Positions 1 through 29,480 of a stretch of 47,324 nucleotides of DNA are shown here, piece by piece. Made by a program: the position numbers and the translations under genes. The notes under the pieces were generated by a model that saw only the letters and a list, made by a program, of their open reading frames with translations, was not told where the DNA came from and did not search any database. Source of the stretch: a virus; IMG/VR virus record IMGVR_UViG_3300025853_000157, positions 1-47,324 of that record. One strand, given 5' to 3'. The first letter of the stretch is position 1, and the number at the start of each line of letters is the position of its first letter.

Positions 1-1259
1 GCATCATAATTAGCTGTTGATAAACCAGTAGATGAACCCATAAAGTTGACAAATGAAGTCACTTGGTTAATATCCCAACTAGATATATCTTGGTCGTAAA
101 TCGTGGTATTGAAATATCCAGCGAACAAACTAGCCATATTAGTTATCGTTGAAGTGTCCCAAGCGTTAAGAGGCTGATTAAATGAATCTGCACCTTGGAA
201 CATACCATTGGCGAGTGTAACACCATTCATATCCCAACCATTAAGAGATTGATTAAATGCTCGTGCTTGAAAGAATGTGCTTTGTGTCAAAGTCAATGAC
301 GTTGTTGTCCAACTACCAATTGGTTGATTAAATGCTAAGGCACCTCGGAACATATTACTCATAGTAGTAACACTACTTACATCCCAAGTTGTAATATCAC
401 CGTTAAAAGCCACGGCACCATTAAACATATTCGACATATTGGTAGCCGATGATGTATTCCACCCACTCAAATCTTGATTGAATGCTATGTTTGTTGTGAA
501 CATACCACCAAATAACTGTACATTACTGACATCCCAACCACCAATTGGCTGATTAAATGAAGTGCTACCAAAGTATCCAGAGAACATAGACGACATATTA
601 GTTGCTGATGATGGAACCCAACTAGTTATATCAGCATTGAACAATTCACACCCTTGAAACATACCTTGAAAACTAAGGATATTAGAAACATCCCAAGAGT
701 TCATAGATGGTGTTGTTAGTGATGAACAGTTGTAGAAAGCGTTTTGTGCAGTAGTTTGAGTACTAACGTCCCAGTTACTAAAATCGGGTGCAACTATTGA
801 GCCACAATCTCTAAATATATTTTGTAGGCAATTAGTAGTAGATAAGGTTGGCGCATCGGTGGCAGTGATGGTCATATTATTACAGCCATAAAACCCATTT
901 ACACTATTTAATGTAAGAGTTCCCCAATTTGAAACATTAGTAATCTTTAATTTATCACCACCGTTATTAAATCTCCATCCTTCAATTTGACCTGATATAG
1001 TAATAGTATATGTTCCTCCTGCTGCGTATGTGTGACTTCGGTTTGCATAAGATAACGATGAGGTAGACGTGTCTCCCCAATCGATTGAACCTAAGTATGT
1101 ACCTCCTGACAGTAATGGTAGTATAATAGTATCTGACGCTGATCCTGCCTGAGTAGTATCTACTTCAATAACAAAGTCGTTGTTGACAGAAGGTGCTCCT
1201 CCACCAGGAAGCTGGTTAGCATTTGAATTTAAAATATTTAAGCCTAATCCACTAAACAT
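1..1259 (-). CDS. BspA-like DUF285 leucine-rich repeat adhesin, 3'-truncated by window
   Basis: The reading frame starts at ATG 1257-1259, overlaps the end of the upstream gene by 8 bases and stays open to the window edge, so the C terminus is missing. About residues 25-90 look like a PKD-type beta-sandwich (GDTSTSS, then SHTYAAGGTYTITISG). The rest is a run of about a dozen repeats of roughly 25-35 residues with the pattern F-N-Q-P-[IL]-x-x-W-[DT]-[VT]-S-x-[VA]-T-x-M-x-x-M-F, the signature of DUF285/BspA-like leucine-rich surface proteins. In bacteria such repeats bind host or surface ligands. At the end of a phage tail module the likely role is receptor binding (inference). No signal peptide is seen. 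Confidence in the family is high, in the role moderate. Confidence 0.85.
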   Translation of the reverse strand, partial: MFSGLGLNILNSNANQLPGGGAPSVNNDFVIEVDTTQAGSASDTIILPLLSGGTYLGSIDWGDTSTSSLSYANRSHTYAAGGTYTITISGQIEGWRFNNGGDKLKITNVSNWGTLTLNSVNGFYGCNNMTITATDAPTLSTTNCLQNIFRDCGSIVAPDFSNWDVSTQTTAQNAFYNCSSLTTPSMNSWDVSNILSFQGMFQGCELFNADITSWVPSSATNMSSMFSGYFGSTSFNQPIGGWDVSNVQLFGGMFTTNIAFNQDLSGWNTSSATNMSNMFNGAVAFNGDITTWDVSSVTTMSNMFRGALAFNQPIGSWTTTSLTLTQSTFFQARAFNQSLNGWDMNGVTLANGMFQGADSFNQPLNAWDTSTITNMASLFAGYFNTTIYDQDISSWDINQVTSFVNFMGSSTGLSTANYD

Positions 1260-25493: not shown

Positions 25494-25586
25494 AAAGCAC
25501 ATAGCACATTCAAATGCACATAGCACATTACACATTTAAATGCACATTACACACTCAAATGAAATTAGACATTACACATTCAAATG
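25494..25586. repeat. Four imperfect direct repeats ending in CAAATG or TAAATG
   Basis: Units of 19-26 bases of the kind CACAT..CACATTCAAATG end at 25516, 25542, 25561 and 25586. The DNA is A/C-rich on this strand. Spacing is irregular, so this is not a CRISPR array; iteron or regulator-binding repeats are possible. Confidence 0.6.
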
Positions 25587-25613
25587 CACGCAAGAGTCAA
25601 GCATCTATTTGAC
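25587..25613. promoter_or_regulatory. Two-copy element, copy 1
   Basis: CACGCAA, two bases, GTCAA, eight bases, TTGAC. The GTCAA and TTGAC halves form an inverted repeat. The same element with identical spacing is found at 26261-26287. Each copy directly follows a block of TGCAC/CAAATG repeats. Copy 1 lies 38 bases before the ATG at 25652. Confidence 0.55.
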
Positions 25614-26161: not shown

Positions 26162-26189
26162 AAAACTTTATTCATTCACAATGCAAATA

Positions 26190-26236
26190 AAATGCACAAT
26201 GCACTGGCACAGGGCAAAATCAAATGCACAATGCAC
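26190..26236. repeat. Two exact 15-bp direct repeats, with inverted relative downstream
   Basis: AAATGCACAATGCAC occurs at 26190-26204 and 26222-26236, 32 bases apart. A near-inverted version, GTGCAATGTGCAATG, lies at 26318-26332 on the other side of the second copy of the 27-bp element. Symmetric placement suggests a protein-binding site array. Confidence 0.6.
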
Positions 26237-26260
26237 AAATACACTATTCAAATACAAATA

Positions 26261-27521: not shown

Positions 27522-28198
27522 TTATATTTTCCCCTAAGAAACGTTGACCACTACTTAGAATACCACGGAGGTGCGAAACTCAAGGTATGCTCAGATACGT
27601 TAAAGTGCGAGTGGAGGGGGAAATATTTATTATTAAATCAACTGATATCTTCAGAAGATGGAGAATACCAAGTAGCTGTTAGCAAATTTGCTTTCAGTGA
27701 CGCTGTGAAAAACCAGACATCAGGTGCTCTATCTTAAGTTGCAACCTGAAGATTCAGTTGTATTTGGAGTTTAGTTTGTGTTTCCAACACGAATCTACAA
27801 GGAAACTTGGGGGGTTTGTGAGACACTGGCCTATCTGGTCGTTGAGTGGGAATGTACGCCCATAAACACAGGCTTTGCTCCAACTTTTACATATGTAGAC
27901 CAGATCGGCAAGTCCGAAATTGAATGTCAATAGGCTTTTTACTCTCGTATTGAGTATCCACGATGGTTAGAATGTAAAAAGACTGCTTAATTGCATAGGA
28001 CTGCTGGGTCTATATTATTAACACGCAGATATAATCAAGTCATCACTGCGGTATATAAATCAAAGAGCCAGGTTGCTGGGATAGAGAAAACCTTAAATAA
28101 CTATCCATATTTAGTAAGCACGTATAAGTGGGCGTGTATTCTTATTCGGGGTATCCACATCATCCCGATGTTTTTATTAATCTGAAATTCAAATGCAA
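27522..28198 (+). ncRNA. Candidate structured noncoding RNA, about 0.65 kb
   Basis: No convincing gene in any frame, yet helices follow closely. ATATTTTCCCC (27524-27534) can pair with GGGGGAAATAT (27616-27626); inside it CCACT/AGTGG (27548-27552, 27610-27614) and GTAT/ATAC (27585-27588, 27595-27598). TGCAAC-C-TGAA / TTCA-GTTGTA forms a hairpin at 27740-27762. ATCTGGTC (27833-27840) pairs with GACCAGAT (27898-27905) around further stems (TGGG/CCCA, GTTGAG/CTcCAAC). It ends with ACATC-ATCCC-GATGT and a T run at 28157-28175. Direction is inferred from neighbours and the terminator. The RNA class is unknown. Confidence 0.5.
28157..28175 (+). terminator. Terminator at the end of the structured segment
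   Basis: ACATC (28157-28161), loop ATCCC, GATGT (28167-28171), running into TTTTT. The stem is short but the T run is good. It stands 24 bases before the next gene. Confidence 0.55.
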
Positions 28199-28591
28199 AT
28201 GGGACTTGATGCTTATCTTTATAAATACAAAGGAAAGAACAGAAAAGAAGTAGATTTTGAATACAGTGGAGAAGAAGAAGAGATTCATTATTGGCGTAAA
28301 CATCCAAACCTTGAACAGTTTATGTCTAAGCTTTATTTCAAAAAAGGAGGAGAAGGAACAGAATCTTTCGGAGGCCATAAAGTTTTTAACTGCTGCAAAG
28401 TAGAACTAAAAGAACAAGATATAAATACTCTAAAAGAGTTGATCATATCTGATAACTTACCAGAAGGAGGAGGATTCTTTCACGGCAACAATTCAGATGC
28501 GTATTATAAAGAGGAAACTCTTGATGCATTGAATAATGCAGTAGATGCCATTGAAGAGGGTGATAGAATATATTATACTTCTTGGTGGTAA
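28199..28591 (+). CDS. MGLDAYLY-family phage protein
   Basis: 130 residues from ATG 28199; an ATG six bases earlier would add only two residues, and family members begin with MGLD-x-YLY. The sequence continues KYKGKNRKEV, EIHYWRKHPNLEQFMSKLYF, NCCKVELKEQDINTLKELI, FFHGNNSDAYYKEETLDALN. Proteins with this start and a central [WR]-K-[HA]-N...F pattern are common in phages and conjugative elements; their function is unknown to me. It is an isolated gene between two structured noncoding segments. Confidence 0.75.
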   Translation: MGLDAYLYKYKGKNRKEVDFEYSGEEEEIHYWRKHPNLEQFMSKLYFKKGGEGTESFGGHKVFNCCKVELKEQDINTLKELIISDNLPEGGGFFHGNNSDAYYKEETLDALNNAVDAIEEGDRIYYTSWW

Positions 28592-29155
28592 TGCAATAGA
28601 TATCTGTTAACGATTAAAGAGTAAAACAACAAGTTGTATAGATAGTAACAATCAGATGCTGCAGCATCCAACGCACACAGGAGAGTGTGAACAATATCGA
28701 ATAGACAAAGAAAGACAATTTGTTGAAATTCACCTGAGAACAATAGACAGTAGTAATAGAAGGTGGAGAAGCTTATAACTTCCAAATCCCTCGCAAGGAG
28801 AATGGGGATAGACCTACGCACACTTGCAATTATCATAGTTCTCGCCAAAGAGCGTTGTCTGTTGTTCTGTGCTTTGACAGAAAGAATCCCGTTTTGGCGG
28901 TGTAAATATTAAACTAATTAGCATCCAGAGTGGCATCTGGCAGGTGATAATTTATTGAAACCATTCTGATTCATTACAGACAGATAATCCCCTACGGACT
29001 TAGTATCGGAAGATTATCAACACTATCCAAGAAGTGTTTAGGTCTGGATGAATGTACTCTTTAATTCGTTAAGAGGATTTCTATAGTGGTCTTTGGGTTC
29101 GTATGCCAAAGAAGTATTCCACAATTGGAGTGGACAGAATGGTTTCTTTTTTATT
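28592..29155 (+). ncRNA. Candidate structured noncoding RNA upstream of the tRNA
   Basis: About 560 bases without a credible gene. Perfect pairings in order: GATGCTGCAGCATC palindrome (28655-28668); CACAC-AGGAGA-GTGTG near 28675-28690; CGCCAAA (28843-28849) with TTTGGCG (28893-28899) enclosing TTCTGT/ACAGAA (28865-28870, 28877-28882); CCAGA/TCTGG near 28925-28940; GATAATC (28983-28989) with GATTATC (29012-29018); AACACT/AGTGTT (29019-29024, 29033-29038); TCTTTGG/CCAAAGA (29090-29096, 29106-29112); TCCAC/GTGGA near 29118-29134. Location next to a tRNA in a phage recalls the GOLLD and ROOL giant RNAs, but no sequence match is claimed. Confidence 0.5.
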
Positions 29156-29272
29156 AGTCAGGTGGCGGAATTGGTAGACGCAGCACGGTATGGCAATACA
29201 GAGGGTGATGGTATAAGTCCCATCAGTGTTAAGTGACCTCTCTTAGAACAGGTTCGAATCCTGTCCTGACTA
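29156..29272 (+). tRNA. tRNA-Leu-like gene with 37-nt anticodon loop
   Basis: Acceptor AGTCAGG (29156-29162) pairs with CCTGACT (29265-29271), discriminator A, no encoded CCA. The D arm (GCGGAATTGGTAGACGC) is that of tRNA-Leu, the T arm ACAGG-TTCGAAT-CCTGT is perfect, and a long variable arm is TAAG...CTTA (29230-29245). The anticodon stem can be GCACG (29183-29187) with AGTGT (29225-29229), one mismatch. The loop then holds 37 bases (29188-29224) instead of 7, itself folding into GTAT-ggca-ATAC and GATGG...CCATC. Without the extra 30 bases the molecule would be 87 nt, normal for tRNA-Leu. The anticodon cannot be read: small intron, degenerate gene or tRNA-like domain. Confidence 0.75.
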
Positions 29273-29278
29273 AATATT

Positions 29279-29300
29279 AAAGGTCAAACCTACGACCTTT
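29279..29300 (+). terminator. Hairpin directly after the tRNA-like gene
   Basis: AAAGGTC (29279-29285) and GACCTTT (29294-29300) form a perfect 7-bp stem with loop AAACCTAC. There is no T run, so it may be a processing or stability hairpin rather than a terminator. Confidence 0.45.
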
Positions 29301-29480
29301 CACTCTATAGCTGCAGAAATGCCCTTATAGATGATAAAAGAAGATAAACGAAATAGGTGGATTAGTTACCGAATAAGTTTATCCAGTGTACCCTGAAACG
29401 ACATTTGAGGGGATTCATAGACGCTGAGGAGTTGTCAGCTAGACCATTGAGAGATGGTGCTAAAACAAAAACCGATTAAA
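29301..29480 (+). other. Noncoding leader with hairpins
   Basis: The 180 bases between the tRNA hairpin and the next gene contain GCTGA/TCAGC (near 29427-29443) and ACCAT-TGAGAG-ATGGT (29443-29458). No gene seen. It may be the 3' part of the structured locus or the leader of the following operon. Confidence 0.35.

Follow-up and report, generated by a model that had tools for sequence, protein, structure and literature searches.

A modular structured noncoding locus with near-invariant cores and exchanged arms, a candidate large RNA of crAss-like phages

Results

A modular noncoding locus in crAss-like phages

A structured, noncoding stretch of about 860 bases (approximately 28606-29463, + strand) was found in the 47,324-base IMG/VR virus record IMGVR_UViG_3300025853_000157, the whole of which is referred to here as the window. 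Homologous domains were recovered from about 20 metagenomic virus contigs, as the same pieces in the same order and on the same strand. The locus has a modular architecture in which arms are exchanged between phages and turn over rapidly, and the folds of two of its domains, A and B, are supported by compensatory base changes. On the reading that we prefer, and to which we assign a probability of about 50%, the locus specifies a large modular noncoding RNA of crAss-like phages, a scaffold of the GOLLD/ROOL type with recombining arms and with a tRNA-like domain (T*) that would be cut by RNase P and RNase Z.

Extent, coding content and fold

The initial annotation had described 28592-29155 as a gene-free, structured stretch of about 560 bases next to a tRNA. 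This interval is bounded by the stop codon of a 132-aa ORF on its 5' side and by a tRNA-like sequence on its 3' side, and contains no plausible genes. Its predicted fold has a free energy of -146.2 kcal/mol (z = -3.36), and none of 100 dinucleotide shuffles folded as low. The description of the interval as gene-free and structured thus held, also as judged by the 18-21 stop codons found in each of the three forward frames of 28606-29463. The stretch is, however, longer than first described, since it extends past the tRNA-like sequence to 29463, and the adjoining gene is tRNA-like rather than a normal tRNA (see below). In the window, the RNA starts directly after one gene, runs through five consecutive domains (Z-A-Y-T*-B) with almost no linker between neighbours, and ends about 20 nt before the next gene. 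A further structured element, X, is present upstream of the 132-aa gene. The features are as follows.

28021-28178, + strand: domain X, composed of X1 (28021-28113) and X2, a hairpin with a terminator-like end (28119-28178)
28193-28591, + strand: orphan 132-aa ORF between X and Z, a neighbour outside the RNA
28618-28727, + strand: domain Z, with a palindrome (28655-28668), a hairpin (28674-28689) and a closing helix (28625-28635/28715-28725)
28729-28956, + strand: domain A, with a closing helix (28730-28736/28941-28947), inner helices (28738-28750/28859-28867), a core (28844-28871), a hairpin (28925-28940) and variable arms P and Q; 8 homologs
28957-29150, + strand: domain Y, with a 12-bp closing helix (28957-28968/29135-29146), a hairpin (29117-29134) and a long variable arm
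29156-29272, + strand: domain T*, with tRNA-Leu-like acceptor, D arm and T arm, and an unrelated insert replacing the anticodon and variable arms
29279-29463, + strand: domain B, with a hairpin (29279-29300), helix P3 (GATAAAC/GTTTATC), helix P4 (CAGTGT/ACGCTG) and a last core segment (29453-29463); about 18 homologs

X1 is 87-95% identical to stretches in contigs L104/L158 and L109/L113, and X2 is shared with L008; the fold of domain X is predicted from its sequence. The 132-aa ORF is kept beside the RNA in L008 (80%) and L013 (78%) and also occurs in record G003 (53%), and no Pfam or PHROG match was obtained for it. Domain Z (fold z -3.5) shows 91% identity over 113 nt with L109/L113/L162 and is also found in L146, while domain Y (fold z -4.3) could be aligned with L160, L204 and L146. 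The palindrome reported earlier, the 14-nt sequence GATGCTGCAGCATC, was located at 28655-28668 within Z. This self-complementary hairpin is intact in the Z copies seen, a hint that it could pair between molecules.

Two long-range pairings had also been proposed. The one inside domain A is conserved and covaries. The longest one, between 28609-28623 and 29055-29070 with one bulge, had no counterpart in the relatives inspected; it was therefore set aside as a conserved feature and may be specific to the window phage.

Two further observations concern short repeated sequences. The motif TATAAG recurs in loops of X2 (28119-28136) and T* (29207-29230) in the window, of arm R in L008 and of T* in L151, and may be a shared contact or a relic of an anticodon loop. 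Short direct repeats with a unit like ATTCAAATGCACATTRCAC, spaced by about 19-26, are present at 25497-25597 and 26185-26237 in a noncoding stretch between oppositely oriented gene blocks; these could be iterons of a replication origin.

Homologs and domain combinations

Homologs were sought by scanning short conserved pieces against fetched relatives and all viral contigs, and exact-pattern matches in DNA without other parts of the module, which made up most loci, were discarded as chance. The window terminase is closest to those of crAss-like and Flavobacterium phages (about 36% amino acid identity), and the terminase, portal, head protein, primase, helicase and ribonucleotide reductase all match phage families. 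The carrier contigs whose proteins could be tested belong to distantly related crAss-like phages, and their large terminase subunits (TerL) are only 28-36% identical to that of the window. All carrier contigs are metagenomic, and domains Z, Y, T* and C (described below) rest on 3-5 sequences. DNA similarity searches of cultured phages gave short tRNA matches or none, and a 30-mer of B had no match in a scan of bacterial genomes. A 20-mer of B matched three times in unrelated bacteria, which we regarded as chance.

A further domain, C, lies 3' of B in L160, L162, L158, L013 and L192. Its end is terminator-like in L160, L162 and L013, and an intrinsic terminator is predicted in L160. The domains occur in the following combinations.

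Z-A-Y-T*-B: window
A-Y-B-C: L160
Z-B-C: L162
A-B: L008
B-C: L013
B-B-C: L158
Z-A-(repeat)-Y-T*: L146, L147
A-Y-T* inside a tRNA cluster: L204
A alone between two tRNA-Leu genes: L153
A alone: L154
B alone: L156, L157

None of Z, A and Y is found in as many contigs as B. Since several combinations exist, the domains together do not have to function as a single molecule. The locus may alternatively be regarded as an array of separate small RNAs that are clustered at a hypervariable locus and cut apart at the tRNA-like sequence, each domain being an independent small RNA or a decoy, for instance a sponge for a host defence protein that binds or senses RNA. The occurrence of A without B and of B without A, the closure of every domain on itself, and the tandem B of L158 and repeated B of L183 all agree with such an array. 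It does not, however, account for the order Z, A, Y, T*, B, C, which is constant wherever several domains co-occur, nor for the way the domains abut, with no promoters or terminators above chance level between them in the window. We consider an array of this kind rather unlikely, although it is the alternative that survives best.

Near-invariant cores and exchanged arms

The core segments are 15-28 nt long and almost identical across phages despite the low identity of their TerL proteins. The arms between the cores range in length between 0 and about 130 nt, or between 1 and 183 nt in Y, and for most arms at equal positions the similarity does not exceed that of shuffled sequence (mean 41%, maximum 58%). 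Single arms nevertheless reach 85-100% identity in pairs of phages with otherwise unrelated arms. Arm Q of the window is thus 99% identical to that of L204, whereas arm P of the same pair shows 27%; arm B2 is identical (100%) in L008 and L160, whose remaining arms show 42-55%. Further shared arms are P in L008 and L204 (90%), B1 in L013 and L162 (97%) and Q in L146 and L160 (91%). The turnover is most clearly seen between L153 and L204, whose flanks are 98.6% identical upstream and 96.1% identical over 4.4 kb downstream, while inside the RNA locus only core stretches of 33 and 41 nt are reported as common and Y and T* are present in L204 only. Assembly error is argued against by the recovery of the same arrangements from different metagenomes, with L146 and L147 being 100% identical over 2310 nt and L161 and L162 99.9% identical over 9.8 kb. 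The exchange of arms between distant viruses hints at an RNA that evolves under conflict and not as an ordinary gene.

A sub-motif like CAGTAACCCCGAAAGAC was seen at differing scaffold positions, in arm Q of L153, arm R of L204 and an arm of L192, and the arms may themselves be assembled from reusable pieces. As possible antisense guides, the arms gave no above-chance match to the fetched phage DNA. Comparison of the cores with E. coli rRNA, for complementarity or similarity, gave matches no longer than those for shuffled sequence.

Another explanation is that the domains are cis-acting elements of untranslated regions, either leaders or attenuators for the next gene or stabilisers of the mRNA of the preceding one. 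Their position would suit this role: in the window, L008 and L013 they come right after the stop of the 132-aa gene, and a start codon lies about 20 nt beyond B in the window and L008. The neighbouring genes vary between phages, however, and in L153 and L204 the element lies within a cluster of called tRNA genes. Complete arm turnover between near-identical phages is also unlike a ligand-binding leader, and we judge a cis-acting function to be improbable.

Covariation and the RNA strand

Covariation in relatives, which the initial annotation had proposed to look for, is present in both A and B. The alignments of the cores were anchored by sequence with the arms cut out, and the same sequences also served to derive the structures. 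In A (8 sequences, 26 pairs), 99% of the cells pair, and five pairs have changed on both sides, in nine cells. In B (15 sequences, 38 pairs; rows L158a, L182 and L197 were omitted on account of register shifts), 94.7% pair, and 11 pairs have changed on both sides, in 22 cells. For neither domain did any of 500 shuffles reach that number, and as a control, sliding one strand by 1-3 bases reduced pairing to 31-57%. Compensatory changes are exemplified by GATAAAC/GTTTATC, GATAAGG/CCTTATC and GATAGA/TCTATC in B and by CACCTG/CAGGTG versus CATCTG/CAGATG in A, which also contains the stems CCAGA/TCTGG, CCACC/GGTGG and CCGTT/AACGG. In Y, an A-U pair is replaced by G-C in the 12-bp closing helix, and there is one change in the hairpin. 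Covariance models of the cores matched the window with 54.9 bits (E 6e-13) for A (model R1) and 58.9 bits (E 1.5e-10) for B (model R2), but it should be underlined that both models include the window sequence and that these core-only models give rough E-values and miss members with long arms. They usually found one locus per phage, and no match in five related 80-86 kb contigs.

The variable pairs of A include 10 G-U cells and no A-C cells, indicating that the + strand is the likely RNA. The corresponding counts in B are 10 and 8, with one helix loosely registered, and thus carry no strand signal; for several B elements the sense strand gave a better fold than the antisense strand, although this was not uniform. 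This bears on whether the domains could instead act as DNA, as folded single strands or as mobile recombination cassettes resembling attC sites or MITEs, to which any RNA would be irrelevant. Hairpins could form in single-stranded DNA too, and the movement of arms and whole domains between phages is what such cassettes would produce. The G-U compatibility of all one-sided changes in A, the better sense folding of several B elements and the usual presence of one locus per genome argue for RNA, and we consider action at the DNA level very improbable.

The tRNA-like domain

In the window, T* has a 7-bp acceptor, a GCG/CGC D stem and a 5-bp T stem with the loop TTCGAAT. The window, L146 and L204 have the acceptor and D arm in common and a complete T arm, but unrelated inserts have taken the place of the anticodon and variable arms; the window insert forms other hairpins there. 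L151 contains another such body. No anticodon arm with a Leu anticodon was found in T* of the window, L146, L204 or L151, and ARAGORN called no tRNA in the window. With its class II D arm, T arm and 7-bp acceptor, T* thus resembles a phage tRNA-Leu, from which it differs by its hypervariable insert in place of the anticodon arm and by escaping the ARAGORN call. Decoding by T* is not to be expected, since the anticodon arm is missing. RNase P and RNase Z recognise the elbow and acceptor of tRNAs, and the retention of both parts in T* points to a role in processing or structure. T* also suggests how a larger RNA can recruit a tRNA body. In L196, a phage that also has a B domain, the ARAGORN calls include a tmRNA (425-810, minus strand) whose tag peptide is implausible; this may be a further tRNA-like body containing a long insert.

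T* and the tRNA-like arm fragments (arm R in L008; L204) do resemble broken tRNAs and every contig is metagenomic, but it is hardly credible that the locus is functionless, decayed tRNA-cluster debris or a product of metagenomic chimeras, given cores that are almost invariant at about 30% TerL identity, the covariation, and the same arrangements in different metagenomes (L146/L147, L161/L162).

Comparison with known RNAs

The initial annotation had suggested membership of GOLLD or ROOL, or else a new class. Membership was not supported: six phage records, that of the window among them, were without a match to the GOLLD model (RF02032, and not RF01998 as had been tentatively given) at E values up to 10, and the ROOL model (RF03087) likewise had none in six phage records, which is weaker evidence as this search was silent in all 14 control genomes as well. 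Whole-library scans with Rfam 15 gave no match over the locus and no gathering hits in the window, and a scan of the window at relaxed E yielded chance-level snoRNA matches only. GOLLD, ROOL and other Rfam families were accordingly rejected as the identity of the locus, and the suggestion of a large structured noncoding phage RNA of a new class agrees with the missing Rfam match, the fold and the covariation. A description of the family was not found in the open-access literature, subscription papers and preprints being outside the scope of this search.

No function is known for giant phage RNAs such as GOLLD and ROOL. Both are found in phages near tRNA islands and form RNA-only cages (PMC12286853). 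The 5' part of GOLLD is variable and its 3' part conserved, with a tRNA sometimes located in the linker (PMC12286853). The present locus resembles GOLLD in its similar total size, in its phage origin close to tRNAs and in the tRNA that at times lies inside the molecule (PMC12286853): it is phage-encoded, T* lies inside it, and the L153 and L204 elements lie in tRNA clusters. In contrast to GOLLD, its domains are separable and variously combined, its arms are exchangeable, and its internal tRNA lacks the anticodon arm. With ROOL it shares the similar length and the location in phages near tRNA islands (PMC12286853), but it is modular and not one intertwined fold. By analogy in size, host and tRNA neighbourhood, the RNA would work most like GOLLD and ROOL. 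The DUF805b RNA (RF02914) occurs downstream of B in L109 (62-96, - strand) and L113 (11155-11189, + strand) and also in the B-bearing L120 (120-154, - strand); this 35-nt motif is a distinct element and was not found in the window.

Proposed function and significance

According to the preferred reading, a large modular scaffold RNA, the locus would be transcribed with the + strand operon into consecutive domains that each close on themselves, with near-invariant cores bearing hypervariable arms at fixed positions. T* may serve as a processing signal for RNase P and RNase Z, so that cleavage of the precursor would yield Z-A-Y as the 5' product and B as the 3' product. The cores would bind a common partner or one another, by analogy with GOLLD and ROOL, which are scaffold or cage RNAs. 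The arms would form an adaptable surface, exchanged by homologous recombination between the short invariant core segments, and host defence or competing phages may exert diversifying selection on them.

More tentatively, the locus might represent a categorically new system, a combinatorial scaffold RNA whose cores act both as recombination handles and as sites of assembly or partner binding, whose arms are swapped at the pace of an arms race, and whose built-in, anticodon-less tRNA body is a processing or structural module. There is a real chance that combinatorial arm exchange makes it a new kind of its own.

The finding would add an independent family of large RNAs in relatives of crAss-like phages, and its fixed cores with exchangeable, fast-turnover arms are unreported for other giant phage RNAs in the literature searched. 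This pattern also makes the question of function testable: what is being evaded or targeted is indicated by the arms in which near-identical phages differ, and the partner by the invariant cores.
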